64,000 nucleotides of DNA, taken from Corynebacterium freneyi (GTDB taxonomy: Bacteria; Actinomycetota; Actinomycetes; Mycobacteriales; Mycobacteriaceae). The notes beneath the pieces are model-generated. The model saw only the letters and a list, made by a program, of their open reading frames with translations, had not been told where the DNA came from and did no database searches. Location of the stretch: assembly GCF_030408835.1 (NCBI RefSeq), contig NZ_CP047357.1, positions 1,302,001 to 1,366,000 of the forward strand, in the 5' to 3' direction. The position numbers and the translations under genes were made by a program. This document shows, one piece after another, positions 1,142-63,146 of this stretch; position 1 is the stretch's first letter, and each line of letters begins with the position of its first letter.

Positions 1142-2081
1142 CCGACAGGCCCGGCAGTGCGGCGGCTCCGTCGCCGCGGAAGACCGCACCACCGGCGTGG
1201 CACAGACCCGCCGCCTGCAGCGCAAACGCGCGGGCGGCGGGTTCTTTCGCCTCCATGAGCGCGCGCCGCCAGGCCTCGGCGCAGGAATCCTCGAGTGCCG
1301 CGGCGAACCCGGCGGCGTCCCGCTCCGGGGCGGGGGCGCCGTCGACGACGGAGTACCCGGGTTCGGCGACCGGCACGGCCACGTCGGCGTCCTCGAGCAT
1401 CGAAATGACCCGATCGCGCAGCATGCGGTGGCGGTCGGCGCTGGTCGCCGTCGATTCGCGCAACTCCGGGGCGATGCGGGGAGCCGCCACGCCCATCCCG
1501 TAGACCAGCGCGTATTCGGCGATGAGGGCGTCGGCGAAGGCTGCGGCGTCGTCGCCGTCGATTCCCTCTTCGTCGGTGTGCTCGGGCACGAGGTCACGCC
1601 AGCCGACGTCCAGTCCCCGCAGCGACAGCACCACGCCGCCGTCGACGGCGGAGACCAACGCCGCCTCGTACGGATCGCGCAGCGCACGGCCGGACGACAG
1701 GGCGTCGTAAAGCAAAGACGAGCCGCGGGAATCGCGCAGAACCGACTCCGCATCGGCCGGGGCCGGAGCCGCCGGCAGGGGAGACGGGGCGGCGACGCAC
1801 TCCTCCGGGGAAGTGCCGTCGTCGAGGACTCCGCACGCGCGGGTGACCTCCGCGGCCAACGCATCGGCCTGGGTGCGGCGCACATCCGCGGCAGCCGGTG
1901 CCGCGTCGCCGAGGACGTCGACGTCGCGCAGGGCCAGCGCCCACGCCGCCTCCACCACGGGATCCGCGGAAGGGCCGGAAATGGGGGAGCAGCCCGCGGC
2001 GGCCAGCGTCAACGCACCGCCGAGGCCCGCGGCACCCGCGAGGAACGCGCGGCGGGGCAGGGGAGCAGTCGGGTCAATCAC
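1134..2081 (-). CDS. Tat-type lipoprotein, DUF4439/ferritin-like family
   Basis: This 315-residue protein is predicted to be exported. The chosen GTG start gives an N-terminus with [11 protein letters not shown], a twin-arginine-like signal, then a hydrophobic stretch ending in a lipobox-like AAGC. It is therefore probably a lipoprotein anchored outside the membrane. The rest is Ala/Asp-rich and helical, with patterns I associate with the DUF4439 (ferritin-like) proteins that actinobacteria carry between proS and rimP; function unknown. The frame extends upstream to 2417, but that stretch is antisense to rimP. It is divergent from rimP and convergent with proS. Confidence 0.8.
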
Positions 2082-2110
2082 GCGTCCATCGTGCCACGGT
2101 CGGCGGGGGC

Positions 2111-2116
2111 TAGACT
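2111..2116 (+). promoter_or_regulatory. -10 hexamer for leaderless rimP
   Basis: TAGACT followed by exactly 7 bases and then the rimP ATG. This spacing puts the transcription start at or next to the start codon. No Shine-Dalgarno sequence is present. Confidence 0.6.
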
Positions 2117-2123
2117 GCACGGC

Positions 2124-2699
2124 ATGGCCTTTCCCCCCGCAGAAGCAATCGCCGACGTCATCCGCCCCGCAGCCGCCGCCCGCGGCCTCGACATCGAGGA
2201 CCTGAAGGTCACCGGCGCCGGACGCATGTCGCGGGTCACCGTGCTCGTCGACGGCGACGACGCCCCCGACCTCGACGCCATCGAAGCCGTCACCCGCGAC
2301 ATCTCCGCGGCCCTCGACGAAGCCGAGGCGGCCGGGGAGATCGACTTCGGCGAGAAGGAATACACCCTCGAAGTGAGCACGCCCGGAGTGTCGGCGCCGC
2401 TGACCGCCCCGCGGCACTGGCGCCGCAACCGCAACCGCCTGGTCCGCATCCGGCTCGACGACGGCGGCCAGCTGGTCGGCCGCATCGGCGCGTTCGACGA
2501 AGACGGCGACCGGGTGATCATCGTCACCTCCACCGGACCCAAGGGCCGCCCCAAGGCGACCGGCGCGATTCTCGAGTTGGCCATGGTCGCGCAGGCGGTG
2601 GTAGAAATTGAGTTCTCTAAGGCACCGGCGGTCGAGCTCGACCTGGCCGGACTGGATTTCGACGACGCCGTGACCCGGCTGGAGGAACTGGACAAGTGA
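2124..2699 (+). CDS. rimP: ribosome maturation factor RimP
   Basis: RimP (DUF150/YhbC) assists maturation of the 30S subunit. The 191-residue product has the N-terminal alpha/beta domain ([47 protein letters not shown]) and the SH3-like C-terminal domain ([18 protein letters not shown]). The frame is open far upstream, but ATG 2124 is preferred because a TANNNT -10 element ends 7 bases before it. Its stop overlaps the nusA GTG (GTGA), so the two are translationally coupled. It is the first gene of the rimP-nusA-ylxR-infB cluster. Confidence 0.93.
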
Positions 2700-3682
2700 A
2701 GATCGAACTCGCCGCCCTGCGCACGCTGGAAAAGGAACGCAACATCCCGTTCGGCGAAATGATGGGCCTGCTCGGCCGCGCGCTGCGGGAGGCCTACCGG
2801 GGCACCGACTCGCCGGCTGAGTACGCGCGAGTCGACATCGATTACGACACCGGCGAGGTCACGGTCTTTGCCCAGGAACGCGACGAAGAGGGCAACCTCG
2901 TCGCCGAATGGGACGACACCCCCGAGGACTTCGGGCGCATCGCCGCCTACCCCGTGCGGCAGACCATCCTCCAGCGGCTGCGCGACGCCGAAAGCGACAA
3001 GGTCTTCGGCGAGTACGCCGACCTGGAAAACCAGATCGTCTCCGGCGTGGTCCAGCGCGACGTCCGCGCCAACGACAAGGGCATCGTCATCGTCCACATC
3101 GGCTCCGAGGCCAACGGCCGCGACGGCATCCTCCTGCCGGCCGAGCAGCTGCCGGGCGAAACCCTCGAACACGGCGACCGCACCAAGTGCTACGTCGTCG
3201 GCGTCAACAAGACCCCGCGCGGCGTGGCCATCAACCTGTCGCGCACCCACCCCGAGCTCGTGCGCAAGCTGTTCGAACTCGAGGTGCCCGAGGTCGCCGA
3301 CGAGGCCGTCGAGCTGGTCTCCATCGCCCGCGAAGCCGGCCACCGCTCCAAGGTCGCCGTCCGCGCCACCGTCAAGGGACTCAACGCCAAGGGCGCCTGC
3401 ATCGGCCCGCGCGGCCAGCGCGTCAGCGCCATCATGAACGAACTCGGCGGCGAGAAGATCGACATCATCGACTACGACGAGGACCCCGCGAAGTTCGTCG
3501 GCAACGCCCTGGCCCCGGCCAAGGTCGTCTCCGTCGAGATCCTCGACGAGGAGGAGCGGCAGGCCCGGGTCGTCGTCCCCGACTACCAGCTCTCCCTCGC
3601 CATCGGCCGCGAAGGCCAAAACGCCCGCCTCGCCGCGCGACTGACGGGCTGGCGCATCGACATCCACTCCGACGCCGAATAA
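2696..3682 (+). CDS. nusA: transcription termination/antitermination protein NusA
   Basis: NusA binds RNA polymerase and nascent RNA, and modulates pausing, termination and antitermination. The 328-residue protein has the N-terminal polymerase-binding domain, an S1 domain ([20 protein letters not shown]), and two KH domains marked by [18 protein letters not shown] and [14 protein letters not shown]. It lacks the C-terminal acidic repeats of E. coli NusA, which is normal for actinobacteria. The GTG start overlaps the rimP stop by four bases. A hairpin that carries the CGTCGTAAAGC word follows the stop. Confidence 0.96.
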
Positions 3683-3689
3683 GCGCCCC

Positions 3690-3719
3690 GGCGGGCCGTC
3701 GTAAAGCGACCGTCCCGCC
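3690..3719 (+). terminator. hairpin between nusA and ylxR
   Basis: GGCGGG (3690-3695) pairs with CCCGCC (3714-3719). The loop contains the recurrent word CGTCGTAAAGC (3697-3707) and a small inner stem, GTCG/CGAC. There is no U tract, and the hairpin sits inside a presumed operon. It may be a weak attenuator or processing site rather than a full terminator. Confidence 0.4.
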
Positions 3720-7127: not shown

Positions 7128-7186
7128 GCTTTACGACGGCCGGCCCCCACGCCCGAATGGCGTGGGGGCCGGCTTCGTCGTGAAGC
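7128..7186 (+). terminator. infB terminator flanked by inverted word
   Basis: A perfect 15-bp stem (GCCGGCCCCCACGCC at 7139-7153 with its complement at 7159-7173, 5-nt loop) follows infB. It is flanked by GCTTTACGACG (7128-7138) and CGTCGTGAAGC (7176-7186), which are almost complementary and can extend the stem. There is no clear U tract. Confidence 0.65.
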
Positions 7187-10218: not shown

Positions 10219-10388
10219 TTGTTGACGTTGTGGAGGTTGTGACTAAAGTTGCCTACGGGTCATTCGTGAACCAGGCGGGTCGCCGTCGTCAAGCAAATGG
10301 CCTTGATTACCGCCATGGCGTTACGAATTCGTGACACACGGCGATACGGGAAGTAGGGTTCACGGCACACGAAGCGGAGGAGGCGCCC

Positions 10389-11885: not shown

Positions 11886-12818
11886 CTACAGCGTCGAGGG
11901 CCGCACCACGAACACGGTCTTCGCGCGCTTTCCGGACTCGGTGATGAGGGCGACGACGCGCCCGTCGGGGGTGCGCGCCGCCTGCACGCCGTCCATCCCG
12001 ATCGGTTCGAGCCACTTGCCCTGCGACAGCGCCACGCCTTCGTCGGCGGTGACGTCGCGGGCGGGGAAGCACGCCAGGCACGCCTCGTCGAGGCTCATCG
12101 TCGGCGTCGGATCCGCCTCCAGCTGCTCCAGGGTTTTCGCGCCCTCGATCCGGAACGGCCCCGCCGCCGTGCGCCGCAACGCCGTGAGATGCCCGCCGAC
12201 GCCCAGGCCGGCCCCCAAATCCCGCGCCAGGGACCGGATGAAGGTTCCGGCCGAGCAGTCCACGCTGACGTCGAGATCGATCCATTCCGCGTGACGACGA
12301 ATCCCGTGGACGTCGAAAAGCGACACGGTGACCGGACGCTCTGGCAGCACGACGTCCTCGCCGCGACGCATGCGCTCGTGGGCGCGGACCCCGTCGATTT
12401 TCACCGCCGACACCGACGCCGGACGCTGCATGATGTCGCCGGTGAGCTCCGCGACGCCGGCCATGATCGCCTCATCGGTCACCGCCGCGAGCTGCTCGGG
12501 CGTCGCTGTGGCCAGCACCTCGCCCTCGGCGTCGTCGGTGACGGTCGAAGCACCCAGGCGGATCGTCGCGTCATAGGACTTCGCGTCGGCGTGGACGTGC
12601 GGCAGAAACCGGGTGCCGCGATTGACGCCCAGCACCAGCACACCCGTCGCCATCGGATCCAACGTCCCCGAATGCCCCACCCGGCGCGTGCCGAACATGC
12701 GCCGCAGCTTTGCGACGACGTCGTGGCTGGTCATTCCGGCCGGCTTGTCCACCACGACGAGCCCCGAATCGGCGAGCGGATCGACCTTCGGATCACGCGT
12801 GTTCCCGGATGCGTTCAT
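11886..12818 (-). CDS. truB: tRNA pseudouridine(55) synthase
   Basis: TruB makes pseudouridine 55 in the T-loop of tRNAs. The 310-residue product has LVVVDKPAGMTSHDVV (residues ~20-35), the catalytic motif VGHSGTLDPMATGVL with the nucleophile Asp54, and a C-terminal domain. The frame is open upstream through ribF, but ATG 12818 sits 7 bases after a TAGGAT element on the minus strand, the same leaderless spacing as its neighbours. An in-frame ATG at 12827 overlaps that element and is less likely. It is divergent from ribF, with 51 bases between the start codons. Confidence 0.94.
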   Translation of the reverse strand: MNASGNTRDPKVDPLADSGLVVVDKPAGMTSHDVVAKLRRMFGTRRVGHSGTLDPMATGVLVLGVNRGTRFLPHVHADAKSYDATIRLGASTVTDDAEGEVLATATPEQLAAVTDEAIMAGVAELTGDIMQRPASVSAVKIDGVRAHERMRRGEDVVLPERPVTVSLFDVHGIRRHAEWIDLDVSVDCSAGTFIRSLARDLGAGLGVGGHLTALRRTAAGPFRIEGAKTLEQLEADPTPTMSLDEACLACFPARDVTADEGVALSQGKWLEPIGMDGVQAARTPDGRVVALITESGKRAKTVFVVRPSTL

Positions 12819-16952: not shown

Positions 16953-17918
16953 ATGATGGCCACCACCGCAAGCGCAGGGACGCCGAAGCGCCCGCGTCAC
17001 GGGCATCCGTTCATCGAGATTTCGGCGGGACGGTACCGCGCCGACATCTCCGCCTTCGGCGGCGGCCCCCGCTTGCTCGAATACGACGGCCGCCCTCTGC
17101 TGGTCGACTACCCGCGCGGCGAATTCCCGCCCCTGAACGCCGGGACGATGCTGGCGCCGTGGCCCAACCGGGTCGCCGACGGCGTTTTCATCCACGACGG
17201 CGTCGTCCACCGTCTGGAAATCACGGAGCCCGGCCGCTCCAACGCCATCCACGGTTTCGTCGACGACCGCGTCTGGAACTTCGTCGAAGCAGGCGACGAC
17301 CACGTCACCCTGGCCATTGACGTCGACCCGCAGCCCGGCTGGCAATGGCCGATGCGCTTCACGGTGCGCTGGAGCGTCGACGCCGACGACGGCCTGCGCG
17401 CCGCCGTCACCGCCGAAAACCGCGGCGAGACCGCCTGCCCCTTCGGCTTCGGCTTCCACCCCTACCTCAGCGCCGCCGGTGCGGACGTCGCCGACTGCAT
17501 CCTGTCCGTCGACGTCGAGGCCAACCTCCCGCTCGAGCCCGCCCGCAACCTGCCCGCCGGTCCCATGATCCCCGCCGACGCCGTCGTCCCCGGCCTGTCC
17601 GACGGCATCGCCACCTCCGGCCTGTGGCTCGACCACTGCTTCAACTCACCGGCCGCCGACGCCCGCGCACGCCTCATCGGCCCCGACGGGCACGGCGTCG
17701 AACTGTGGGCCGACGACCACTTCCGGTGGTTCCAGATCTTCACCGCCGACCCCGCCCGCCGCGAAGGATTCCCCCGCGTCGGCCGCGCGGTGGCGGTCGA
17801 ACCCATGACCTGTCCACCCGACGCGCTGAGATCCGGTCGCGACCTCATCCGCATCGACGCCGGCGAAAAGATCGAACTGGCCATGGGCTTGCGTGCCGTG
17901 ACCACATCGACGTCGTAA
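16953..17918 (+). CDS. galM: aldose 1-epimerase (galactose mutarotase)
   Basis: The enzyme interconverts beta- and alpha-D-galactose so that GalK can act. The 321-residue length fits the bacterial class. Sugar-binding features include LAPWPNRVADGVF (residues ~67-79), the catalytic-region histidine in NAIHGFV, the second motif GFHPYL, and EPMTCPPDAL near the C-terminus, a typical family ending. CAGGAG lies 4-7 bases upstream of the paired ATGs at 16953/16956. It is the first gene of a Leloir operon with a symporter, a small membrane protein and galTK. The stop codon lies inside a copy of CGTCGTAAAGC. Confidence 0.9.
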   Translation: MMATTASAGTPKRPRHGHPFIEISAGRYRADISAFGGGPRLLEYDGRPLLVDYPRGEFPPLNAGTMLAPWPNRVADGVFIHDGVVHRLEITEPGRSNAIHGFVDDRVWNFVEAGDDHVTLAIDVDPQPGWQWPMRFTVRWSVDADDGLRAAVTAENRGETACPFGFGFHPYLSAAGADVADCILSVDVEANLPLEPARNLPAGPMIPADAVVPGLSDGIATSGLWLDHCFNSPAADARARLIGPDGHGVELWADDHFRWFQIFTADPARREGFPRVGRAVAVEPMTCPPDALRSGRDLIRIDAGEKIELAMGLRAVTTSTS

Positions 17919-17996
17919 AGCAACGACCGACGCACGACACGCCGCCAACAAACGTTTCCCCCGACCACACGACCACCACACAGTCAGGAGAATGCC

Positions 17997-19975: not shown

Positions 19976-22366
19976 ATGACCGCCCATGCTTTTTCCACCA
20001 CGCGGATGACGCTTGCCGACGGCCGCGAGCTCATTTACTTCGACGACGAACCCGATTACGTCGAGGGCCGTCGCACGCGCAAGACCGTCGACGAGCGTCG
20101 GTTGCCGGAGGCGGTGACGGAGTCCGAGCTGCGCCGCGATCCGCTCACCGGCGAGTGGAACGTCTACGCCGCGCACCGCATGAACCGGACGTTCATGCCG
20201 CCGGCGAACGAAAATCCGCTTGCGCCGACGAAGCCGGGGGAGTTGCCGACGGAGATCCCGGCCGACGACTACGACGTCGTGGTGTTCGAGAATCGGTTCC
20301 CGTCGTTGTCGATGCACATGGAGGTGCCGGAGGATTTCGCGGTCGAGGTCGACGGCGAGGGCCTGTTCCCGCGTCGTCCGGCGCTGGCCCGGTGCGAGGT
20401 CGTGTGCTTCACCCCGGACGTGACCTCGTCGTTCCGCGATCTTCCGTATCACCGTGCGCGCACCGTGGTGGAGGCGTGGGCGCACCGCACGCGTGAACTG
20501 TCGGAGATCGATGGCGTGCGTCTGGTGTTCCCGTTCGAGAATCGCGGCAAGGAGATCGGCGTCACCCTGCAACACCCGCACGGGCAGATCTACTCCTACC
20601 CGTACCTGCCGGCGCGGGCCGCGGCGATCGCGGACCAGAGCAAGAAGCATCGCGAGCAGACGGGTCGTTCGCTTTTCGACGACGTCCTGGCGGCCGAGAA
20701 GCGGTCGGGCAGGAGGATCGTGGCGGAAGGCGAGCATTTCACCGCCTTCGTGCCGGCCGCGGCGAAGTGGCCGGTGGAGGTCATGCTCATGGCCAATCGG
20801 GACGTGCCGGATTTCGCGGCGCTCACCGACGTCGAGAAGGACGAGCTGACCCGCATGTATCTTGACCTGCTCGGTCGCATGGACCGGTTCTTCGAGGGCG
20901 TCGAACGCACGCCGTACATCGCGTCGTGGAATCAGGCGCCGGTGGGGGAGGACCGGGAGCACGGTCGTCTGCATCTGCAGCTGTACTCGATGATGCGATC
21001 TCCGGGGCGCATGAAGTTCCTGGCCGGATCGGAGTCGGGCCAGGGCGCCTGGATTTCCGACACGACGCCGGAGCGCATCGCGGACCGGTTCCGCGAGATC
21101 GGCGGGGCGCGGTGGTCGCCGACGCGTGACGATGCCACCGGCGCCGCCGATGCGACCGCCCTGTTTACCAGGGCTTTCGGCACTGCTCCCGCGGGAGTGT
21201 GGGCCGCGCCCGGCCGGGTGAACCTCATCGGCGAGCACGTCGATTACGCCGGCGGCATCTGCCTGCCCTTCGCGCTGTCGCAGCGCACGTGGGTGGCCGT
21301 GGCGCCGCGCGACGATGGCCGGTACCGCCTCGTGTCCTCGATGGGCGGGGACGACCCGCAGATCGTGGAGGTCGGCGTCGACGAGGTCGGCCCCGGAAAG
21401 CCGAAGAACTGGACCGGGTACGTGGTCGGCGCGATCTGGGCGCAGCAGCAGGCCGGACTGTTGCCGAAGGATCTCGGCGGCTTCGACATCGCCGTGACCT
21501 CGGATGTGCCGATCGGCGGCGGGCTGTCCAGCTCGGCCGCGCTGGAATGCTCGGCGGCGTTGGCGGCGTACGAGCTGACCGTCGGACCCATCGGCGCCCC
21601 GGGCGAAGAGAAGGGCTCCGAGGTGCGCGCCGCGTTGGTGGCCGCGTGCATCAGCGCCGAAAACGACGTCGTCGGCGCGTCCACCGGTGGCCTGGATCAG
21701 CGGATTTCGCTGTTCGGGCAGGCCGGCAACGCCCTGGCCATCGACTACGCCGACGATTCCGCGGTGCAGGTGCCCTGCGATTTGCCCGCGCATGACCTGG
21801 CCATTCTCGTCATCGACACCAAGGCGCCGCACTTCCTGGCCGACGGCCAGTATGCCTCGCGTCGCGGCGTCATCGACGCGGTGACCGAGGGGCTGGGAGC
21901 GGCATCGCTTCGCGACGTCGACGACGCGGAGACCGCAGCCGCCGAGTGGGCGCGGAAGAACGTGCCCAATGGTGCGGATGCACGGGAATGGGAACGCGTC
22001 GTCGTCAAGCGCGTGCGACACGTCGTATCCGAAATCGAGCGCACCGCGACCGCGATCGAGCAGCTCAAGGCGGGTGACATGGCCTCGTTCGGCGAGTCGA
22101 TGTGCGCCAGCCACGCCTCGCTGCGCGACGACTACGAGGTAACCTGCCCCGAGCTGGACCTGGCCGTGGACACCGCGATGGAGCACGGGGCGGTCGGAGC
22201 GCGCATGACCGGCGGCGGATTCGGCGGCAGCGCCATCGCCCTGGTCGACGCCGCGCAGGTGCGGCCGGTGGCCGACGCCATCGCCGGGGCATTCTCCGAT
22301 GCGGGTTTCCGGCCCCCGGAGTTCCTCGTGGCGGTGCCGTCCGACGGCGCGGAAAAGATCGCATGA
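19976..22366 (+). CDS. galTK: fused galactose-1-phosphate uridylyltransferase / galactokinase
   Basis: One uninterrupted 796-residue frame contains both Leloir enzymes. Residues 1-380 are GalT: ENRFPSL, RCEVVCF and the active-site HPHGQ (His200-Pro-His202) are present. The zinc-site CxxC expected near residue 80 reads N-P-L-A, so both cysteines are missing. Residues ~393-796 are Gal[15 protein letters not shown] (motif 1), [12 protein letters not shown] (512-523, ATP loop), GGLDQR (catalytic Asp574) and [12 protein letters not shown] (motif 3). The fusion would phosphorylate galactose and pass Gal-1-P to the uridylyltransferase. No galE lies in the operon. Confidence 0.93.
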
Positions 22367-29850: not shown

Positions 29851-29898
29851 GCTTGACGACGCCCCTTTCGGCCTTGTGGCCGAAAGGGGCGTAGTCGT
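29851..29898 (+). terminator. rnj terminator containing the recurrent word
   Basis: A perfect 13-bp stem (29861-29873 with 29878-29890, loop TTGT) is extended by ACGAC/GTCGT. Its 5' base is the word GCTTGACGACG (29851-29861). It is near-symmetric and may stop transcription from both sides. Confidence 0.7.
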
Positions 29899-33919: not shown

Positions 33920-33957
33920 GGGGGGGCGTGAAGCGCCGTGCTTTCCGACGATCCACC

Positions 33958-40311: not shown

Positions 40312-40394
40312 TCGTCGCCGGTGGCTCGGGGTTTTGCTTGACGACGCCCGCCTGGTCGGCGAAACGGCGTCGTCGGCGTGTTGCGGCGCGCATT

Positions 40395-42378: not shown

Positions 42379-42460
42379 AAGGTGCCGGGAGGGCGGCGTC
42401 GTCAAGCAAAACGCGCACGGCGGTTCCCACGGCGATTGGGGAAGGCACGCCCGCTCGCGA

Positions 42461-42473: not shown

Positions 42474-44087
42474 GTGACGCACGCCAGCCCCACCACCGAA
42501 AACACCGCCCCCGCAGCCGCCGGCCCCCGCACCTACGAAGTGCGGACCTTCGGCTGCCAGATGAACGTCCACGACTCCGAGCGCCTGTCCGGCCTGCTGG
42601 AGGACAACGGCTACATCGCCGTCGCCGAGGGCGAACGACCCGACCTGGTCGTGTTCAACACCTGCGCCGTGCGCGAAAACGCCGACAACCGCCTCTACGG
42701 CACGCTCGGCAGGCTCAAGCCGGTCAAGGACGAGCACCCCGACATGCAGATCGCCGTCGGCGGGTGCCTGGCGCAGAAGGACAAGGCCGCCGTCGTGAAG
42801 AAGGCGCCGTGGGTCGACGTGGTCTTCGGCACCCACAACCTCGGCTCGCTGCCGACGCTGCTGGAACGCGCCGCCCACAACCACGAGGCGCAGGTCGAAA
42901 TCAAGGACGCGCTCGAGGACTTCCCGTCGGTGCTGCCCGCCAAGCGCGAATCGCCGTACGCCGGGTGGGTATCGGTGTCGGTGGGCTGCAACAACACCTG
43001 CACCTTCTGCATCGTGCCGTCGCTGCGCGGCAAGGAACGCGACCGCCGCCCGGGCGACATCCTCGCCGAGGTGCAGGCGCTGGTCGACCAGGGCGTCACC
43101 GAGGTCACGCTGTTGGGGCAGAACGTCAACGCCTACGGCGTGCATTTCGACGACCCGGAACTCGAACGCGACCGCAGCGCGTTTTCCAAGCTGCTGCGCG
43201 CCTGCGGCGAGATCGAAGGCCTGGAGCGCGTGCGGTTCACGTCGCCGCACCCGGCGGAGTTCACCGACGACGTCATCGACGCGATGGCCGACACCCCCAA
43301 CGTCGCCCCGCAGCTGCACATGCCGCTGCAGTCGGGTTCGGACAAGGTGCTCAAGGAGATGCGCCGGTCCTACCGTTCGAAGAAGTTCCTCGGCATCCTG
43401 GACAAGGTTCGCGAGCGGATGCCGCATGCGGCGATCACCACCGACATCATCGTCGGCTTTCCCGGCGAGACCGAGGAGGACTTCCAGGCGACCCTCGACG
43501 TCGTCGAGCGCGCTCGCTTCACCTCGGCGTTCACGTTCCAGTACTCGCCGCGCCCGGGCACCCCGGCGGCCGACATGCCCGACCAGGTGCCGCCGCACGT
43601 GGTCAAGGAGCGCTACGGCCGCCTCATCGAGCTGCAGGAGCGCATCAGCGAGGAGGAGAACGCAAAGCAGGTCGGCCGCACCCTCGAGCTGCTGGTCACC
43701 GCCGACGATGGCAAGAAGAACGCCGAAACCCGCCGCATGTCGGGGCGCGCGGTCGATGGGCGGCTCGTTCACTTCGCGCCGGTCGCAGTGGACGAGGCCG
43801 AGGGCGCCGATTCGCTTGACGACGCCGGCCGACCCCACATCGACGGCGAGATCCGTCCCGGCGATTTCGTCACCGTCACGGTGACGGAGTCGGCTCCGCA
43901 CTTCCTCATCGCCGATTCCGGTGTCACGGCGCACCGCCGTACCCGGGCCGGCGACATGTGGGAGGCGGGCAACACCCCGACCACCGCCCCGATTGGCGTG
44001 GGGCTAGGCTTGCCCGGTGTGGGACGGCCGTCGACGCCGGCCGTGAACCAGACGATGAACCAGGACAGGGGTTGCGGTTGTGACTGA
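42474..44087 (+). CDS. miaB: tRNA-2-methylthio-N6-isopentenyladenosine(37) synthase
   Basis: MiaB is a radical-SAM enzyme that adds the methylthio group to i6A37 after MiaA has acted. The 537-residue protein has the UPF0004 domain ([34 protein letters not shown]: three cysteines for the auxiliary cluster), the radical-SAM CxxxCxxC in [16 protein letters not shown], and a TRAM domain near the end. The GTG is chosen from the leaderless geometry. The C-terminus ends in CGCD. The next gene overlaps its last eight bases. miaA lies a few genes downstream. Confidence 0.95.
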
Positions 44088-46331: not shown

Positions 46332-47003
46332 GTGACACGTCGACTCCTGCTCATTCCCGGGGCACCCCTGGTGGTGCCGGAACTGTCCGGCGCCGATTCG
46401 GGGGCGGCCGAGGTGCGGGCTGCTGTGCTTTCCGCCGCCCGCCGCGTTCTGGACGGCAACGGCCGGTCGCGTCCGCTCATCGTGCGTCGTCCGGATGATC
46501 GCTTTGCGACGTCCCACCTCGGTTCTTTCCGGGCGTGGGGGGCGGATGTGCGGGTGGGTGGAGGAGCCCATCTGCCGGAGTTGGTGGCCCGGTGGGTGGT
46601 GCGCGAATCCGGCCTGGATCCGGCGGAGGTCGACGTCGCGGCGCAGTTGCCCGACCCGTTCGCGGCCGGTGAAGGTCCGATCATCGTCGTGGCCGAGGGA
46701 CCGTCGGCCTTGACCGCCCGGGCGCCGTTGACGTTGCTTCCCGACGCCGCCCCGATCGACGACACCTGCGCCACCATCGCCGCCGGCGCATTCAACTGGG
46801 AACCGGGCGACGACCCCTTCGGGGCGTTCGGCCCCCGCCTGTGCGAGTCGGTGGGCCTGCACACCATGGGCGTGTGGCAGGACGTGGCGTCCTTCGGCGC
46901 CGAATTGCGCCTGGACGCCGGATCATTCGTCGCGAAGCAGACGTACCGCGGCGCACCGCATGGCGTGGGCTACCACGTGGCCGAATGGGAATGGGAGGCG
47001 TAA
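46332..47003 (+). CDS. conserved hypothetical, extradiol-dioxygenase-like fold (Rv2728c-like)
   Basis: The 223-residue product has strands and motifs seen in the LigB-like conserved hypotheticals encoded before miaA in mycobacteria and corynebacteria. These are [15 protein letters not shown] at the start, [22 protein letters not shown], and [20 protein letters not shown] with SALTARAP near residue 125. Metal-ligand residues typical of active dioxygenases are not obvious. The stop overlaps the miaA ATG by one base (TAATG), so the two are coupled. Function unknown. Confidence 0.75.
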
Positions 47004-47944
47004 TGGGAAAGACGGAAACCACGTCGGACCGGGATCTCACGCCCATCGCGGTCATCGGACCGACCGCCTCCGGCAAGTCCGACCTGGGGCTGGCGCTGGC
47101 CGAGGAGTTCGGCGGCGAGATCGTCAACGTCGACTCCATGCAGCTCTACCGGGGCATGGACATCGGCACCGCCAAACTCACCGTCGACGAGCGCCGCGGC
47201 ATCCCGCATCATCAGCTCGACGTCCTCGACGTGGTGGAACCGGCATCTGTGGCGACGTACCAGGAGGAGGCCGTCGCCGACGTGGAGGCGATCATGGCCC
47301 GCGGCCGGGTCCCCATTCTCGTGGGCGGTTCGATGCTCTACGTGCAGGCGCTCATCGACGATTGGCGATTCCCGCCGACCGACCCCGCCGTCCGCGCGAA
47401 GTGGGAGGCCGTGCAGGAGGAGGTCGGCGTCGAAAAGCTCCACGACCACCTTGCCGACGTCGACCCGGCAGCGGCGGCGATCATCGAGCGCCGCGACCCC
47501 CGGCGCATCGTCCGCGCCCTCGAGGTCATCGAACTGACGGGGCAGCCGTTCGGGGCGTCGAAACCTCCGATCGACGCGCCGCCGCGTTGGGGCACCCGCA
47601 TTCTGGGGCTGGGCACCGAGGCCGAATGGCTCAATGAGCGCATCGAGCGCCGCACCCGACTCATGTTCGAGCGAGGGCTTCTCGACGAAGTGGAGGCGCT
47701 GATCGGGCGGGGGCTGCGAGACGGCGTCACCGCATCGCGGGCGATCGGATACGCGCAGGTGCTGGCCCACATGGACGGAGAGTACGACCTCGACGAAGCC
47801 GTGGACCGCACCATCACCGGCACCCGCCGCTACGTGCGTCGCCAGAAGTCGTGGTTCACCCGGGATCCGCGGGTGCGGTGGCTGGACGCTGCAGCGACCG
47901 GCGGCAACGGCGTGCGCGAGCAGGCGCTGGCCGCGTTGGGGTAA
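47003..47944 (+). CDS. miaA: tRNA dimethylallyltransferase
   Basis: MiaA adds the dimethylallyl group to A37 of tRNAs that read UNN codons, and so makes the substrate of MiaB. The 313-residue protein has the P-loop [11 protein letters not shown] (residues ~18-28), [17 protein letters not shown], the insertion with the [15 protein letters not shown] region, [10 protein letters not shown], and [21 protein letters not shown] lies before ATG. It overlaps the upstream stop by one base. dapF, which I remember next to miaA in C. glutamicum, is absent here. Confidence 0.95.
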
Positions 47945-47977: not shown

Positions 47978-48760
47978 CTAGTGGCCCCCGCAGCCGCCGG
48001 AACCGCAGCCGCAACCGCCGTCGCCGCAGGAATCGCCGCAGCCCTGCGGGGCGATGACCTCGCCGGCCAGCAGGAAGGTGCCCGACACGACCGTGCCGGG
48101 CTGCGGCGCAGCGTCAACGTCGGCGGGGATGACCACGTCGAGGGGGACCGGCACGTCGAGGTGCACGAGCCAGAAGTCCTGGCCGGTCAGGCGGTTGGTG
48201 CGCTTGGTGGCGGAGTTGACCACGCCGGACAGCGTCGCCGAGGCATCGGGGGACGTCGAGCCGGCGGCGGCTCCGGTGACGGCCTCCGCGCCGGTGAAGC
48301 GGACGTCGCCCGGCTGCCCGCCCGTGCGGGCCTCGAAGGCGGCGGCATCCTCATCGACCGCCACGTCCACGGCGAGGGCGGCGAGGTTGACGTGCTCGAA
48401 GGTCTGCGTGCCCTCGTCGACTAGCAGCGGCGACTGGGCCAGGTGGCACGTCGCCGTCGCCACGACCTCGTCGAAATCCGGGCGCGACGGGTCGTCGCCG
48501 ACGATCTCGATGAGCGCCAGGACGTCGTCAAGCGCGGAGACGTGCGCGGTGACCTGGGTCAATCCCGCGAAGCCGGCGAAGGTGGAAAACGGCTCGACGC
48601 CGAGGATGTGCAACCGCGCGCCCGAAGGGTCCTCGAAACGGACGAGCTGGCCGCCGCGGACCTCGCCGATGACGGACAGGTGGTCGGTGGCGATGGCCGC
48701 CTCGATGGCGTCCTGCCAGCGCGGGTAGTCGAGGCCGATGCTCTTCAGGTCGGAAGTCAT
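47978..48760 (-). CDS. hypothetical protein with Cys/Gly-rich C-terminal tail
   Basis: I do not recognise this 260-residue protein beyond a conserved corynebacterial look. The first ~100 residues alternate strands and helices (IGLDYPRWQDAIEAAI; ITDHLSVIGEVRGGQ-like). The C-terminal ~20 residues hold six cysteines spaced by Gly/Asp/Ser, with a final His (GCGDSCGDGGCGCG then SGGCGGH), suggesting metal binding. A TAGGAT lies 8 bases before ATG on the minus strand. It borders the iron-uptake genes, which start 226 bases away on the other strand. Confidence 0.7.
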   Translation of the reverse strand: MTSDLKSIGLDYPRWQDAIEAAIATDHLSVIGEVRGGQLVRFEDPSGARLHILGVEPFSTFAGFAGLTQVTAHVSALDDVLALIEIVGDDPSRPDFDEVVATATCHLAQSPLLVDEGTQTFEHVNLAALAVDVAVDEDAAAFEARTGGQPGDVRFTGAEAVTGAAAGSTSPDASATLSGVVNSATKRTNRLTGQDFWLVHLDVPVPLDVVIPADVDAAPQPGTVVSGTFLLAGEVIAPQGCGDSCGDGGCGCGSGGCGGH

Positions 48761-48889
48761 GGTGATCCATCCTAGCCCCGCGCGGTGCGGGAGCGGGCTC
48801 GGGGTTTTCGGGGGCTTTTTCGGCTTTGCGACGATGTGACGTATTGCTCATCGGCAGCGGCATGAATGGGTTGGTGTTTCGCCGATCAA

Positions 48890-55002: not shown

Positions 55003-57099
55003 TTACGCGGATGCGGCGGCCGCGGCGGGGGCGTCCGCAGGATCGGCGCTCGCCGAGTCGACGGCGGTCTTGCGGGGCCACAGCTGCTTGGCCGCGGTGA
55101 CCGCAATCGCGCCGACGATGGCGCCGATGATGATTGCGACGAACCAGCCGAGGACGTTGTCGATGGCGAAGAAGACGAACACGCCGCCGTGCGGTGCGCG
55201 GGACGCGGCGCCGAAGGCCATGGACAGTGCGCCGGTGACCGCGCCGCCGGCCATCATCGAGGGGATGACGCGCAGCGGGTCGGCTGCGGCGAAGGGGATG
55301 GCGCCTTCGGAGATGAACGATGCGCCGAGCAGCCAGCCGGCCTTGCCGTTTTCGCGTTCGGCCTGCGTGTACAGCGACGGGCGCAGCGCGGAGGACAGCG
55401 CCATGGCCAGCGGCGGCACCATGCCGGCGCCCATGACGGCGGCCATGACCTGCAGGGAGGCTTCGTCGCCGGTGGACAGGCCGGCGGTGGCGAACAGGTA
55501 GGCGGCCTTGTTGATCGGCCCGCCCATGTCGGAGCACATCATCAGGCCGACGATGATGCCCAGCAGGATCGCGGAGTTGCCGGACATGCCGCCGAGCCAG
55601 TCGGTCAGGGCGTTCATCAGGGAGGTCAGCGGTCGGCCGAGGAAGAGGAACATGATCAGGCCGACGCCCATGGAGGCGACGAGTGGCACGACGACCACGG
55701 GCATGAGCGACGCGAGCCAGCGGGGCACGCTCAGGGAGGTCAGCCACAGTGCGATGAGGCCGGCGAGGATGCCAGTGACCAGGCCGCCGAGGAATCCGGC
55801 GCCGATGGCCACGGAGATGGCGCCGCCGATGAAGCCCGGCGCGATGCCGGGGCGTCCGGCCAGGCCGAAGGCGATGAAGGCCGACAGGATGGCGACGATG
55901 GCGCTCATGCCGAAGTTGCCCGTGGCGAAGAGGATGGCGCCGAGGTAGAGCATGAGGTCGGAGCGGTCGACGACGGTGACGGTGCCGTCGTCCATGGTGA
56001 TTTCGTTGCCCGGCAGGTTCCAGGGGGTGTAGGCCTGCGAGACGCGGTCGGCGACGTCGGCGACTTCGTAGCCGCCGAACAGGAAGCCGAGGGCGAGCAG
56101 CAGGCCGCCGGCGGCGACGAAGGGGATCATGTAGCTGACGCCGGTCATGACGGCTTGCTGGATGCGCTTGCCCCAGCTCAGGGAGGAACCACCCGGGCTT
56201 GACGACGAGTCGGCGTCGTCGGCGCCGGCCGTGCCGGACACCCGCTTGGCGTCGGGGTTGCCGGCGGCGGCGATGGCCTCGTCGATCATCGCGGTCGGTT
56301 CGTTGATGGCCCGTTTGACGCCGGATTCGATGACGGGCTTGCCGGCGAATCGGGCGCGGTCCTTGACGCCGACGTCGGTGGCGAAGATGACGGCGTCGGC
56401 GGCGGCGATGGTCTCGGCCGGAAGCGGCTTCACCGCCGAGGAGCCCTGGGTTTCGACGGTGACCTCGACGTCGTCGCGGTCGTCGGCGGCCTGCGTCAGC
56501 GAGTCGGCGGCCATGTAGGTGTGGGCGATGCCGGTGGGGCACGCGGTGATGGCGACGATGCGGGTCACCGACTTCGTCGGCTCGGTCGGAGCCGGTTCCG
56601 GCTTCTTCGCCGCGGCGGTCGGCTCGGATGCGGTCTTCTGGGCGGTGCCGGCGATGCGGGCGTCGACGACGTCGACGATCTCCTCCGGCGTGGCCGCACC
56701 GCGCAGGGCGGCGCGGAAATCCTTCTTGACCAGCCCGCGGGCCAGCTTGGACAGGATTTTCAGGTGGGCCTTGCCGCCGCCTGCGGGAGCGGCGATGAGG
56801 AAGACCAGATCGGCGGGGCCGTCGGGGCCCTGGAAATCGACCGGCTTCGACAGGCGGGCGAAGGCCAGCGTCGGCTCGGCGACGGACTCGGAACGGCAGT
56901 GGGGGATGGCCACGCCGCCGGGGACGCCGGTGCCGGACTTGGCTTCGCGCTCCAGGGCGTCGGCGGCCAGTTCATCGGCGTCGGCGGCGCGGCCGGCGGT
57001 GGTGACCAGCGCCGCCAGATGCCGGATGACGGCTTCCGGGGCATCGCCCGGGGCGACGTCGAGGTCGACGAGCTCCGGAAGGATGACCTGGGGTGACAT
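55003..57099 (-). CDS. ptsF: fructose PTS EIIABC component
   Basis: This single 698-residue protein imports fructose and phosphorylates it to fructose 1-phosphate. Order: EIIA (residues 1-150, phospho-His in AIPHCRSE, His67), a Pro/Ala linker, EIIB (~178-280, phospho-Cys in AITACPTGIAHT, Cys187), and EIIC (~310-675) with about eight to ten helices (GVSYMIPFVAAGGLLLALGF; GPINKAAYLF). An Ala-rich tail ends it. It lies downstream of fruK and upstream of ptsH on the same strand. A CGTCGTCAAGC copy lies in a Ser-rich linker and uses TCA. Confidence 0.95.
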   Translation of the reverse strand: MSPQVILPELVDLDVAPGDAPEAVIRHLAALVTTAGRAADADELAADALEREAKSGTGVPGGVAIPHCRSESVAEPTLAFARLSKPVDFQGPDGPADLVFLIAAPAGGGKAHLKILSKLARGLVKKDFRAALRGAATPEEIVDVVDARIAGTAQKTASEPTAAAKKPEPAPTEPTKSVTRIVAITACPTGIAHTYMAADSLTQAADDRDDVEVTVETQGSSAVKPLPAETIAAADAVIFATDVGVKDRARFAGKPVIESGVKRAINEPTAMIDEAIAAAGNPDAKRVSGTAGADDADSSSSPGGSSLSWGKRIQQAVMTGVSYMIPFVAAGGLLLALGFLFGGYEVADVADRVSQAYTPWNLPGNEITMDDGTVTVVDRSDLMLYLGAILFATGNFGMSAIVAILSAFIAFGLAGRPGIAPGFIGGAISVAIGAGFLGGLVTGILAGLIALWLTSLSVPRWLASLMPVVVVPLVASMGVGLIMFLFLGRPLTSLMNALTDWLGGMSGNSAILLGIIVGLMMCSDMGGPINKAAYLFATAGLSTGDEASLQVMAAVMGAGMVPPLAMALSSALRPSLYTQAERENGKAGWLLGASFISEGAIPFAAADPLRVIPSMMAGGAVTGALSMAFGAASRAPHGGVFVFFAIDNVLGWFVAIIIGAIVGAIAVTAAKQLWPRKTAVDSASADPADAPAAAAASA

Positions 57100-57141: not shown

Positions 57142-58107
57142 CTAGACTTCCCGGACGACGACGGCGCCGGGGTTCGTTTGATCGGGGCGGGGGATGGTGG
57201 TGCCGGGCAAGGCGGTGGCGGCCGAACCGTAGGCGACCGCCTGGCCCAGGGCACCGGCCGCGTCGAGCCCGTCTTCGCGGGCGAGCAGGTAACCGGCCAG
57301 GGAGCTGTCCCCGGCGCCGACCGTCGACAGCGGAACGATCGGGGGAGGGGTCGCGGCGAGGGCCGGGCCGTCGTCAAGCACGAGAACCGCGCCGGCCGCA
57401 CCCAAGGTGACCAGCACCTCGCCGACTCCGGCGGCGTTGAGCTTCCGTGCGGCGGCGACGACCGGGGCCAGATCGCCCGCGGCGGCGCGGCGCTCCAACT
57501 CGGCGCCGTCGATCCCGGCGAGCTGACCCAGCTCCAGGCCGTTGGGCTTCATGACTTCGGGCGCGGCGGTCGGGAAGGCCTCGCCCAGGGCGATCAGCGG
57601 TGCATCGGAGGTGTCGACGGCGATGCCGGCGTCCGGATTGGCCTCGCGGACGCGGCGCACGCACGTGGCCAAGAAATCAACCGGGGCACCCGGCGGCAGC
57701 GAACCGGCGAGCACCACCCAGGACGCCTGCGGCGCATGGTGAGCCAGACGCTCGAGCATCCGCAGCGCATCGGCGTCGGCCAGGTGCGCGCCCGGGGTGT
57801 TGAGCTTCGTGGTGGTGCCGTCGTCTTCGACGATGGTGAGGTTCACGCGGGCTTCGTCGGGAAGATCGATGACCTCGTGGGGGATGTCGGTCTGCGCCAT
57901 CAGCCGGGAAAAGAGCCCGGACTTCGCAGCCGGGTACAGCGCCAGCGTGTCGTGTCCGGCGTTGCGCACGGCGGCCGAGACGTTGATGCCCTTGCCGCCG
58001 GGCACGTCCGACTGCATGGACAGGCGGTAGACCCCGCCGCGTTCGAGCCGGCCCTTGACGGTGGTGGTGCGGTCGATGGAGGGATTGGCGGTGAGGGTGA
58101 GGATCAT
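57142..58107 (-). CDS. fruK: 1-phosphofructokinase
   Basis: FruK phosphorylates fructose 1-phosphate to fructose 1,6-bisphosphate. The 321-residue PfkB-family protein has MILTLTANPSIDRT at the start, DVPGGKGINVS (residues ~34-44) and the C-terminal signature VGAGDSSLAGYL with the catalytic Asp. ATG 58107 overlaps the stop of the DeoR regulator gene by four bases. The recurrent word here is read as CTT-GAC-GAC, with a rare Leu codon. Confidence 0.95.
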   Translation of the reverse strand: MILTLTANPSIDRTTTVKGRLERGGVYRLSMQSDVPGGKGINVSAAVRNAGHDTLALYPAAKSGLFSRLMAQTDIPHEVIDLPDEARVNLTIVEDDGTTTKLNTPGAHLADADALRMLERLAHHAPQASWVVLAGSLPPGAPVDFLATCVRRVREANPDAGIAVDTSDAPLIALGEAFPTAAPEVMKPNGLELGQLAGIDGAELERRAAAGDLAPVVAAARKLNAAGVGEVLVTLGAAGAVLVLDDGPALAATPPPIVPLSTVGAGDSSLAGYLLAREDGLDAAGALGQAVAYGSAATALPGTTIPRPDQTNPGAVVVREV

Positions 58108-59215: not shown

Positions 59216-60952
59216 ATGTCCCCGTCCATGTCTTCGCCCGACTCCGACAACTCGTCCACCTCGTCCGCGCCCGGGTCGGTGTCGCTGCAGGCCACCGCCG
59301 TCGTGCCGGGGGTGGGTTACGCGCCGGCGGTGTGGGTGCGACCCCGGCCCGAGCTGCCGCAGGAGGGCGCGGCGATCGTCGGCGGGGACGTCGACGCCGA
59401 GATTGAACGGTTCCGGGCGGCGGCGACGGCGGTGTCCGAACGTCTTGCCGCGCGGGCGACGCAGGTGGAGGGCAACGCCTCCGAGGTGTTGTTGGCCACG
59501 TCGAAGCTGACGTTGGACCGCGGGTGGCACCGGGCGGCGGTGAAGGAGATCAAGGCGGGCGTCGCGGCGGAGTCGGCGACGATGTCGGCCATCGAGAAGT
59601 TCGTCGAGATGTTCAAGGCCGCAGGCGGCGTCATGGCCGAGCGCACGACGGACCTCGAGGACATCCGCGACCGCGTCATCGCCGAGTTGCGCGGTGACGA
59701 GGAGCCGGGCCTGCCCGCGGTGTCGGAGGCGTCCGTGTTGCTTGCCGACGACCTGTCTCCCGCCGATACGGCGACGTTGGATCCGGAGCTGTTCGTCGCC
59801 ATGGTCACCAGTCTCGGCGGGCCGACCTCGCACACGGCGATCATCGCCCGTCAGCTCGGGGTGCCGTGCGCCGTGGCCGCCGGGGCGGGGCTGAATGCGA
59901 TTGAATCGGGGACGTTGACGCTGGTGGACGGCGCGAAGGGCGTCATCACCGCCAACCCGGACCCGGAGGATGCGCGGGCCGCCGTCGCCGAGGCCGAGCG
60001 GATGGCGGAGAAGATCGCCGCGTGGTCGGGCCTCGGCCGCACCGCGGATGGGGAGCATATCCAGTTGCTGGCCAACGTCGGCGACGGCAACGCGGCGCGC
60101 ATCGCGGCGGAGGGCGCGGCCGAGGGCATCGGCTTGTTCCGCACCGAGCTGTGCTTCCTGTCGGCCGCCACCGAGCCGACCGTGGAGCATCAGGCGGACA
60201 TCTACGCCTCGGTGCTCAAGGCGTTCCCGGAGTCGAAGATCGTGTTGCGCACCCTGGACGCGGGGTCCGACAAGCCGCTGGCGTTCGCCAACCTCGATCA
60301 CGAGGACAATCCGGCGCTGGGCGTGCGGGGCCTGCGCATCTCCCGGTCGAACTCGGGGCTGATGGAGCGTCAGCTCGACGCCATCGCGTTGGCCGCGGAG
60401 AAGGCCGGTCGCGGCGGGGATGCGCCCACGTGGGTGATGGCTCCGATGGTGGCGACGCTGGAGGAGGCCGAGTGGTTCGCGGACCTGTGCCGACGACGCG
60501 GGCTCACCCCCGGTGCGATGATCGAGATTCCCGCCGCGGCCCTGATGAGCCATGACCTGATGAAGGTGCTCGACTTCGTGTCCATCGGCACCAATGACCT
60601 CACCCAGTACGCCATGGCCGCCGACCGGCTGTCGCCGCACCTGGCGTACCTCACGGATCCGTGGCAGCCGGCGGTGCTGCGTCTGATCGACATGGCGTGC
60701 CGCTCCGGCAAGGACTCCGATACGCCGGTGGGCGTGTGCGGCGAAGCGGCGGCGGATCCGTTGCTGGCGTGCGTGCTCGTGGGGCTCGGCGTGACCTCGT
60801 TGTCGGCTGCGGCGACGGCCCTGCCGGGCGTGGGTGCCCAGTTGGCGGAGGTCACCGCCGCCCAGTGCGCGGACGCCGCCCGCGCCGCCCTGGATGCGTC
60901 GGATGCCGACGGTGCCCGTGCGGCGGTGCGCGCGGTGCTCCGACTGGAGTAG
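59216..60952 (+). CDS. ptsI: phosphoenolpyruvate-protein phosphotransferase (PTS enzyme I)
   Basis: Enzyme I takes phosphate from PEP and passes it to HPr. The 578-residue protein has a ~20-residue Ser-rich extension, the N-terminal HPr-binding and phospho-His domain (SLGGPTSHTAIIARQLG, His at ~206), and the PEP-binding TIM barrel (GIGLFRTELCFL, RTLDAGSDKPL, VSIGTNDLTQYAMAADR, VGVCGEAAADP). GAGGAGAG precedes ATG 59216. Divergent from fruR; convergent with lexA. Confidence 0.97.
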   Translation: MSPSMSSPDSDNSSTSSAPGSVSLQATAVVPGVGYAPAVWVRPRPELPQEGAAIVGGDVDAEIERFRAAATAVSERLAARATQVEGNASEVLLATSKLTLDRGWHRAAVKEIKAGVAAESATMSAIEKFVEMFKAAGGVMAERTTDLEDIRDRVIAELRGDEEPGLPAVSEASVLLADDLSPADTATLDPELFVAMVTSLGGPTSHTAIIARQLGVPCAVAAGAGLNAIESGTLTLVDGAKGVITANPDPEDARAAVAEAERMAEKIAAWSGLGRTADGEHIQLLANVGDGNAARIAAEGAAEGIGLFRTELCFLSAATEPTVEHQADIYASVLKAFPESKIVLRTLDAGSDKPLAFANLDHEDNPALGVRGLRISRSNSGLMERQLDAIALAAEKAGRGGDAPTWVMAPMVATLEEAEWFADLCRRRGLTPGAMIEIPAAALMSHDLMKVLDFVSIGTNDLTQYAMAADRLSPHLAYLTDPWQPAVLRLIDMACRSGKDSDTPVGVCGEAAADPLLACVLVGLGVTSLSAAATALPGVGAQLAEVTAAQCADAARAALDASDADGARAAVRAVLRLE

Positions 60953-60983
60953 CGCGAACGGGGGACGTGCACGCGAAAAAGAA

Positions 60984-61013: not shown

Positions 61014-61030
61014 AGGAACTAGAGGAAGAA

Positions 61031-61741: not shown

Positions 61742-62066
61742 GTGTCCACTCCCACTGGTTCAGGTCGTGCTCGATCGCGTCGTGCTCGGTGTCGTCGTGC
61801 TGGGTGTCGTCGTGTCGGGGGCGTCGTGTTCGGCGTCCGTCGCGCCGGTCATTCCCGCCCGCCGTTCGAACACGACCCTACACCAAAACCACCCGTTGTG
61901 GCACAACTGTTCGAAGTTTTCGCCCCCATCTCTGGACGCGCTCCCGTGGCGGTGCTATAAATCGAACGCGGGAACGGAGTCGAACATCCGTGCGGCACGT
62001 TCGAAAGGGATTATCCGCGTCGTTTTTTACGATGCCCGCAGATTGCCGGATGGAAGGAGCCAACCG
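61742..62066. promoter_or_regulatory. divergent SOS control region lexA/divS
   Basis: Two LexA-like sites are visible. 61899-61914 (TGGCACAACTGTTCGA) matches the corynebacterial consensus TCGAA(C/A)ANNTGTTCGA with two mismatches and sits near the -35 of lexA, whose -10 is probably TAGGGT on the minus strand (61876-61881). 61980-61995 (TCGAACATCCGTGCGG) has three mismatches and follows a TATAAA (-10, 61956-61961) that reads toward divS. A third half-site (TCGAACG, 61962-61968) lies between them. Confidence 0.6.
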
Positions 62067-62594
62067 ATGACCGCCTTTATCGAAGATTACCGCATCAACA
62101 CCCTGACCAGGGGAGAAGAGCAGCTTTGCGACGGGGTGCCCGCGTGGGTCCGGCAACGCCCGATCGGCGCTTCGGCTCGTGTCGGCGCGTCCGTTCGTCG
62201 GTCCGCAGCTTCCGGCGATGTTCGACGTCGTGGTGGCTCGGATCGAACGGGGGTCCGCACGTCCCGTGGCCCGTCGAACGGCCGTCCGGGTGGCGTTCCG
62301 GGGGCTTCTCGGCGTCCGAACACAGGGCGAACGTCACCGGTGCCCGCACCCGGACACGGTGTTTCGAACATCGGCCACGTTCGGGGTAGCCGTTCGGTCG
62401 TCCGGGGTCCGGTGCAGGGAGTGCGCCGCAACGCCACGTCCATGGCCATCGTCGCGGGCATCGGCGCCGTGTTCGGTCTCATGCTCCACTTTTCCGGCCT
62501 GGGGGCGCCCATGCCGGACACTCCGCCCACGCCGACGTACGTCGGGGCGTCGAGCACGGCTGGGGAACCCGTGGCAGGCGGGGTCGCGAAGTAG
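62067..62594 (+). CDS. divS: DivS-like SOS cell-division suppressor
   Basis: This 175-residue protein lies between lexA and nrdR, where C. glutamicum carries divS, an SOS-induced inhibitor of septation. The N-terminus (MTAFIEDYRINTLTRGEEQL) is followed by ~85 Arg/Gly/Ser/Pro-rich residues that look disordered. Then comes one membrane helix (~135-152, MAIVAGIGAVFGLMLHFSG) and a short outside tail. AAGGAG lies eight bases before ATG. The assignment rests on position, topology and SOS sites; sequence conservation in the middle is low. Confidence 0.72.
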   Translation: MTAFIEDYRINTLTRGEEQLCDGVPAWVRQRPIGASARVGASVRRSAASGDVRRRGGSDRTGVRTSRGPSNGRPGGVPGASRRPNTGRTSPVPAPGHGVSNIGHVRGSRSVVRGPVQGVRRNATSMAIVAGIGAVFGLMLHFSGLGAPMPDTPPTPTYVGASSTAGEPVAGGVAK

Positions 62595-62683
62595 GGGCTC
62601 GCCACAGAGGGGGTACCACGGAGGGGTCACCACGGAGTGGGGGACGAGTAAATGGGGTTGGCCGTACAGGAGGGTGCACGCCG

Positions 62684-62689
62684 TATGCT
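62684..62689 (+). promoter_or_regulatory. -10 hexamer for leaderless nrdR
   Basis: TATGCT is followed by exactly 7 bases and GTG 62697. Confidence 0.55.
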
Positions 62690-62696
62690 CGGAAGC

Positions 62697-63146
62697 GTGC
62701 ATTGCCAGTTTTGCCACCATGATCAAACGAAGGTCATCGACTCGCGTCTCATCGACGACGGCATGACCATCCGCCGCCGGCGGGAGTGTTTGTCGTGCGG
62801 TAAACGATTCACCACGCTGGAACGCTCCCAGCTCGTCGTCGTCAAGCGTGACGGGGTCGTGGAGGACTTCAGCCGTGACAAGGTCATCCGCGGCGTGCGG
62901 CGGGCATGCCAGGGCCGTGACGTGCCGGAAGCATCGTTGAAGTTGCTCGCCCAACAAGTCGAGGAAACGCTGCGTTCGAAGGGCACGCCGCGCGTCAATT
63001 CCAACGACATCGGCCTGGCCATCCTGGAGCCGCTGCGCGACCTCGACGAAGTCGGCTACCTGCGGTTCGCGTCGGTGTACAAGTCCTTCAGCTCCGCCCA
63101 GGATTTCGAAAACGAAATCCGGTCTCTGCGCGAACGCGACGCGTAG
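62697..63146 (+). CDS. nrdR: transcriptional repressor NrdR
   Basis: NrdR represses ribonucleotide reductase genes in response to ATP/dATP. The 149-residue protein has the zinc ribbon (Cys3, Cys6, Cys31, Cys34 in [10 protein letters not shown] and ECLSCGKRF) and the ATP-cone ([20 protein letters not shown]). The GTG start matches both the leaderless promoter and the family's usual first residues; upstream in-frame codons are rejected. It is convergent with hrpA, with three bases between stop codons. Confidence 0.95.

Follow-up and report, generated by a model that had tools for sequence, protein, structure and literature searches.

The window analysed here, a stretch of 64,000 nucleotides of the Corynebacterium freneyi chromosome, carries many copies of a short non-palindromic word, and the nature of this word is the subject of our analysis. 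A first-pass annotation of the window had listed the 11-base word CGTCGTAAAGC 17 times, with every coordinate and strand exact, and had put the chance expectation well below one copy, in agreement with 100 shuffles of the window (mean 0.11, maximum 1). The sites were placed with our own gene calls, by which 7 of the 17 copies are intergenic or at a stop codon, as had been annotated. Six of them, again as annotated, overlap a stop codon or begin at most 35 bases downstream of one. The copy at 17911..17921 (plus strand) overlaps the stop codon, and stop codons precede those at 3697..3707 (plus), 42397..42407 (plus), 40336..40346 (minus) and 29851..29861 (minus) by 14, 18, 24 and 33 bases, respectively; the first three of these are intergenic and the last adjoins a hairpin. 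The sixth, at 7128..7138 (minus), is the left arm of an inverted pair at the hairpin following the gene at 4305-7094 (infB by eye). Its right arm is a variant, CGTCGTGAAGC at 7176..7186 (plus), and the two arms are separated by a GC-rich, terminator-like hairpin (7139..7175, by eye), so that the inverted flanking of this hairpin was correctly recognised. Another intergenic copy lies at 10284..10294 (plus) and a further copy at 1703..1713 (plus). Copies inside genes are found at 32191..32201 and 39082..39092 (both plus), antisense within genes at 43814..43824 (minus), 48523..48533 (plus) and 57369..57379 (plus), and on the gene sense strand at 56197..56207 (minus) and at 22000..22010, 36320..36330 and 62837..62847 (all plus), the last three of which may be chance.

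The 11-base word is real but incomplete, being merely the commonest spelling of a bipartite unit that consists of CGTCG, two free bases and AAGC (CGTCG-NN-AAGC, CGTCGNNAAGC). With this unit the number of sites in the window is 35, not 17. Besides the arm at 7176, CGTCGTGAAGC occurs at 805..815 (minus). The spelling CGTCGAAAAGC was found at 946..956 (minus), 12311..12321 (plus), 20671..20681 (minus) and 47428..47438 (plus), and CGTCGCAAAGC at 12707..12717, 46501..46511, 48823..48833 and 62123..62133 (all minus, the latter two intergenic). The others are CGTCGGCAAGC at 20011..20021, 35939..35949 and 59740..59750 (all minus), CGTCGCGAAGC at 21907..21917 (minus) and 46928..46938 (plus), CGTCGGAAAGC at 33940..33950 (minus, intergenic), CGTCGGGAAGC at 46736..46746 (minus) and CGTCGAGAAGC at 47677..47687 (minus).

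In the whole chromosome (2.88 Mb) the 11-base word was present in 353 + 345 copies, against 8 + 10 for the reversed word in the same genome, which served as control for all such counts. For CGTCG-NN-AAGC the counts were 859 + 861 = 1720 copies against 52 + 67 = 119, a single overwhelmingly over-represented short word, as uptake sequences require. The structure of the unit was determined in a 464-kb sample made up of the window and 20 further stretches of the same chromosome, from which the counts below are taken unless stated otherwise. A strong excess was seen only when the half-sites were 2 bases apart (268 observed, 19.7 expected); gaps of 0, 1, 3, 4 and 5 gave 27, 4, 28, 6 and 29 against 30.9, 10.0, 25.2, 15.7 and 19.0 expected, that is 0.4 to 1.5 times expectation. 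Single substitutions in CGTCG or in the final GC left 0-3 copies, and the two middle bases vary. Changes of an A in AAGC left 19 copies (first A to G) and 31 copies (second A to C) of the C form, and 0 and 3 of the A form, which we take to be mostly background. The flanks also show preferences: A is favoured immediately downstream, and 77 of the 110 exact words have G two positions upstream. The k-mers of 8-10 bases that scored highest under an order-4 Markov model were mostly parts of CGTCG-NN-AAGC. In a test of k against k-2 on the window alone the word was not ranked, because its sub-words share the same excess.

Within the 398 kb of called genes in the sample, 190 coding sites were observed, against 27.3 ± 4.3 (maximum 36) in 100 synonymous shuffles, and sites contain 120 of the 393 CTT codons. 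The first-pass annotation had proposed selection on the DNA and not on the protein, and had named a frequency near the codon-aware expectation as evidence to the contrary; the shuffles, together with one-base swaps at orthologous sites (below), support the proposal. As the shuffles still yield about 27 sites, a minority of the coding sites is due to chance. This may include the three window copies starting at 22000, 36320 and 62837, which had been read as ordinary Val-Val-Lys codons and do lie on the sense strand; for these three, chance is only a perhaps.

The sites occupy both coding and intergenic DNA, with intergenic DNA enriched as in uptake sequences: the roughly 14% of the sample that is intergenic holds 73 of 267 sites and, for the exact word, 46 of 110 copies. 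The association with gene ends and hairpins, real in the window, is weak in the sample. A stop codon is found at most 60 bases before 26 of 74 intergenic sites, compared with 25% of 1245 random intergenic positions, and gaps between convergent genes showed no excess of sites. Folds around 73 sites were mildly stronger than those around 630 random intergenic places (mean -36.2 and -32.3 kcal/mol, p=0.0008, uncorrected for the base composition of the site). Six pairs of neighbouring sites are no more than 60 bases apart, and five of these are inverted (GCTT..CGACG followed by CGTCG..AAGC), one of the five embracing the hairpin at 7128-7186. The first-pass annotation had suggested plotting the copies against origin-terminus orientation. 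With the terminus assumed at 1.44 Mb, the strand counts in the two chromosome halves were 76/73 and 58/60, showing no skew of the kind expected for a KOPS-type orienting motif; equal orientations without replication skew are also a property of uptake sequences. Over the 106 genomes that bear the word (below) the strands are likewise balanced (56312 forward, 56511 reverse). Spacing is near random (coefficient of variation 0.92, against 1.00 ± 0.06).

The distribution of the word was surveyed in 151 Corynebacterium genomes and in 199 genomes from 60 other genera of the order, a genome being regarded as word-bearing when its count was at least 3 times the reversed control. CGTCG-NN-AAGC reached this threshold in 106 of the 151 genomes (115 to 1891 sites, median 17-fold), so that the very many copies common to related corynebacteria, named in the first-pass annotation as the expected support, were indeed found. 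A second dialect, CATCG-NN-AAGC, was discovered by a gapped-word search in the apparently word-less or word-poor genomes G006, G053, G094, G144 and G143. It is borne by 8 of the 151 genomes (625-1337 sites, against 7-27 in the control), of which G143 bears both dialects. Neither dialect was present in 38 genomes; among these, G073 and G084 have a moderate CATCG excess, and G041, G062, G084, G120 and G132 stand at 1.5-3 times control for CGTCG. In the other genomes of the order the top ratio, read by eye, was 1.7 (G310, 418 against 246), and a strong excess was not found in the other genera sampled. A contig scan covered 80 loci, two of them from Corynebacterium (L125, C. lubricantis DSM 45231, 1286 sites against 82 in the control; L126, Corynebacterium sp. 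NML98-0116), whose genomes match G086 and G050, respectively, exactly in their site counts; the other 78 had a mean of 0.31 sites per 10 kb and a maximum of 2.0.

Further dialects were sought in the word-less genomes G010, G033, G014, G039 and G133 (100 kb each) and G148 (40 kb), and none was established. The variant CGTCG-NN-GAGC was raised in G039 (27 against a Markov expectation of 9.6) and G133 (28 against 15.0) and was rejected as a dialect because it is also raised in the C. freneyi sample (115 against 66.2). Two of these genomes have other repeats or words. G133 (loci L053, L071 and L088-L090) contains a palindromic repeat, ATGCACGTGCAT, with 16-18 counts per 100 kb over both strands, corresponding to about 8-9 places. 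In G039 (loci L048, L066 and L082-L084; 76-77% G + C), words of the type CTCGNCGAG/GTCGNCGAC are strongly over-represented, which may reflect codon use.

The relation between the two dialects was examined with midpoint-rooted trees of 9 proteins with gaps, in which some nodes are weak, and with orthologous sites at three loci (com, tad and dprA), at all of which sites are conserved. One clade (support 1.00) of a 31-genome tree contains the CATCG genomes together with the word-less G014 and six CGTCG genomes (the G004 group). G006 and G105, both CATCG genomes, form the sister of this group. G004 and G006, at about 80% nucleotide identity, share their sites, and the neighbours of these sites are largely alike. 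Wherever the remainder of the core is intact at the com and tad loci, in 15 of 15 orthologous sites, the two genomes differ by G/A at base 2, with 0 unchanged in either direction; at the dprA locus 1 was swapped, and from the G006 side 1 was swapped and 1 unchanged. For the two sister groups at the com and tad loci, in pairs that are not independent, 165 sites were swapped and 0 unchanged (1 to C) from the CGTCG side, and 165 swapped and 13 unchanged from the CATCG side. Over all cross-dialect pairs, which share ancestry, sites with the other eight bases intact had the partner base in 468 cases against 8 unchanged, and in 466 against 50; at the third locus, dprA, the corresponding counts, with the same shared ancestry, were 73 against 5 and 73 against 13. 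A single mismatch fell at base 2 in 470 of 501 cross-dialect cases, compared with 40 of 188 within the CGTCG dialect. A one-base change coordinated at many unlinked sites requires a trans-acting reader, and dialects that follow lineages are known from uptake sequences. G014 (loci L046, L065, L085-L087 and L224), nested in the CATCG clade, is without sites, and its orthologous positions are scattered mutants. Each of the six G004-group genomes retains 118-152 CATCG sites. These counts suggest an ancestor with the CATCG dialect and a later reversal to CGTCG; the alternative is several parallel G-to-A switches.

Foreign DNA is depleted of the word, as expected of an uptake sequence, in the one prophage for which this was counted. 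The prophage, at about 643.7-692.2 kb of the C. freneyi chromosome (48 kb; bounds G000:C1:643745-692241 read from the gene list, loci L114-L116), has 3 sites where 28.0 were expected (Poisson P=3e-9). Its genes encode a tyrosine integrase, a RecE-like exonuclease, a dUTPase, a terminase with 57% identity to a Mycobacterium abscessus prophage terminase, a portal, a capsid, a tape measure protein and an endolysin.

DNA-uptake machinery is encoded nearly throughout the genus. Our gene finder, trained on little DNA, called few genes in the genomes of lower G + C content, and there tblastn decided presence. ComEC was found in 151 of 151 genomes, DprA in 151 (128 over cut-off), the Tad ATPase (TadA) in 148 (142 over cut-off), Tad T2SSF in 143 and TadE in 146 at E 0.01 (only 21 over cut-off); ComEA was present in all 20 com loci examined. 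T2SSF, ComEC, the Tad ATPase, DprA and TadE were rejected as an on/off gene for the word, as each occurs with and without it. By eye, T2SSF matches are weaker in many word-less genomes and strong in others (e.g. G014 and G039). In the word-bearing G101 (C2:174454-175475) and G112 (C1:297808-298844) the Tad ATPase is present as two adjacent pieces, an apparent frameshift.

From these sequence comparisons we consider it probable (roughly 0.6) that CGTCG-NN-AAGC and its second dialect, CATCG-NN-AAGC, serve the genus Corynebacterium as a DNA-uptake-type sequence. The first-pass annotation had offered a DNA-uptake word as one of three options, beside a protein-binding site and a chromosome-organising motif; the dialects and the depletion in the prophage favour the uptake word over the other two, although the word given was incomplete and the link to gene ends is weak. 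A putative DNA-binding receptor would prefer site-bearing DNA and would probably work with the Tad/Flp pilus and ComEA/ComEC. Imported DNA of kin would recombine, and sites would accumulate and persist through biased import (molecular drive). If the receptor's preference shifted by one base, the old sites, one mutation away from the new word, could be rewritten in place, resulting in a dialect switch. We infer all three parts of this scheme: the reader as an uptake receptor, the drive and the machinery involved. In word-less species the receptor, or its preference, may have been lost and the pilus kept. We give even odds to the wider claim that uptake sequences evolved independently a third time, here for the first time outside Proteobacteria, with a Tad pilus reading the word across the mycolate envelope and a receptor that shifted by one base and reverted in one lineage, hundreds of sites being rewritten each time.

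A study of Tad pili and DNA uptake in Liberibacter has reportedly been published. In the actinobacterium Micrococcus luteus, Tad/Flp pili are required for transformation (PMC6370729). Uptake-sequence systems are so far known in Neisseriaceae and Pasteurellaceae (PMC12616744). The DNA uptake sequences (DUS) of Neisseriaceae resemble the present word in being very frequent and short, in occurring in coding and intergenic DNA and in having lineage-specific dialects that follow phylogeny (PMC3630211). They are unlike it in that the Corynebacterium word differs, is bipartite with two free bases and occurs in Actinobacteria with few inverted terminator pairs, and no ComP-like minor pilin was found among the com/tad proteins examined. 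The uptake signal sequences of Pasteurellaceae are likewise over-represented genome-wide, with two subtypes, Hin and Apl (PMC3630211), but the word is unrelated, and a type IV minor pilin, ComN, is the predicted receptor in that family (PMC12616744).

Several observations weigh against an uptake sequence. Inverted pairs are scarce (5 in the sample, accounting for about 10 of 268 sites), whereas in some Neisseriaceae up to 37% of terminators bear DUS (PMC13020248). The competence genes are about equally common in word-bearing and word-less genomes and thus do not explain the distribution of the word. T2SSF was unmatched in 8 genomes, of which 3 are word-bearing (G071, G075 and G119), and the Tad ATPase was unmatched or weakly matched in the word-bearing drafts G075, G092, G113 and G119. 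No residues separating the dialects were found in ComEA, Flp, TadA, TadB, TadC or the TadE-/TadF-like proteins at the com and tad loci. Isolated dialect-disjoint columns occur in TopA, HolA, TadZ, ComEC and five other proteins of these loci, and in four proteins near dprA, in both cases with the chance level uncomputed; dprA itself fell in a gap of the gene calls. Among the com/tad proteins tested at the com, tad and dprA loci, none follows the word in presence or sequence, and a receptor would therefore be encoded elsewhere or would vary in a more complex manner. Natural competence in Corynebacterium was not reported among the literature matches listed. Nor did the matches listed, mostly open-access, report uptake sequences in Corynebacterium or Actinobacteria, an over-represented motif, or the word itself; those containing its letters are chance-like and concern other subjects.

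The best surviving alternative, which we regard as rather unlikely, is a chromosome-organising, segregation or nucleoid protein that binds the site inside the cell, weak selection keeping about 1 site per 1.7 kb until a change in the protein rewrote the sites. Such a protein would account for the near-random spacing, the balanced strands, the conservation of orthologous sites and the coordinated swap; it would work without competence, whose genes do not follow the word. The 38 genomes without either dialect, some nested among word-bearing ones (G014, G039), are however odd for a housekeeping site, and weak selection seems less able than biased import to replace all of several hundred sites. 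In addition, parS and matS sites are palindromic, unlike the present one. Less likely still is a Chi-like word controlling the break-repair helicase-nuclease AdnAB. Chi sites (for RecBCD or AddAB) are also frequent non-palindromic words, and depletion in prophage and coevolution with the enzyme would fit, but the Corynebacterium word is longer and gapped. RecC family members were found in 0 of 151 genomes while the Escherichia coli control matched, and the replication-strand (leading-strand) bias usual for known Chi sites is lacking, given the assumed terminus. Nothing on such a word was found among the best matches listed of 23,501 loose ones to the AdnAB literature. An artefact of mutation, codon use or base composition, or else a small mobile repeat, could draw on the high G + C content, the three Val-Val-Lys copies among 17 and the mild excess of the one-base variants GAGC (115, as above) and CAGC (81 against 54.9) at gap 2 over the Markov expectation, by which codon periodicity adds a little, but it is already contradicted by the synonymous shuffles, the reversed control, the strong excess at gap 2 only and the orthologous sites that stay put and swap one base, and would require a word-specific mutation process differing between sister groups.

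If the word is indeed an uptake sequence, a distant phylum with a mycolate envelope would provide the third such system. Closely related species groups with a one-base difference in the word would then allow direct tests of how a preference for self-DNA evolves and how receptor and word coevolve, and genetic tools for this large genus could be opened.

Apart from the prophage, a second region of the C. freneyi chromosome with few sites was noted at L024:8785-16245 (G000, about 2.259-2.266 Mb). It is low in G + C content and by eye contains transposase-like genes, two of which are near-identical over the 70 residues shown.

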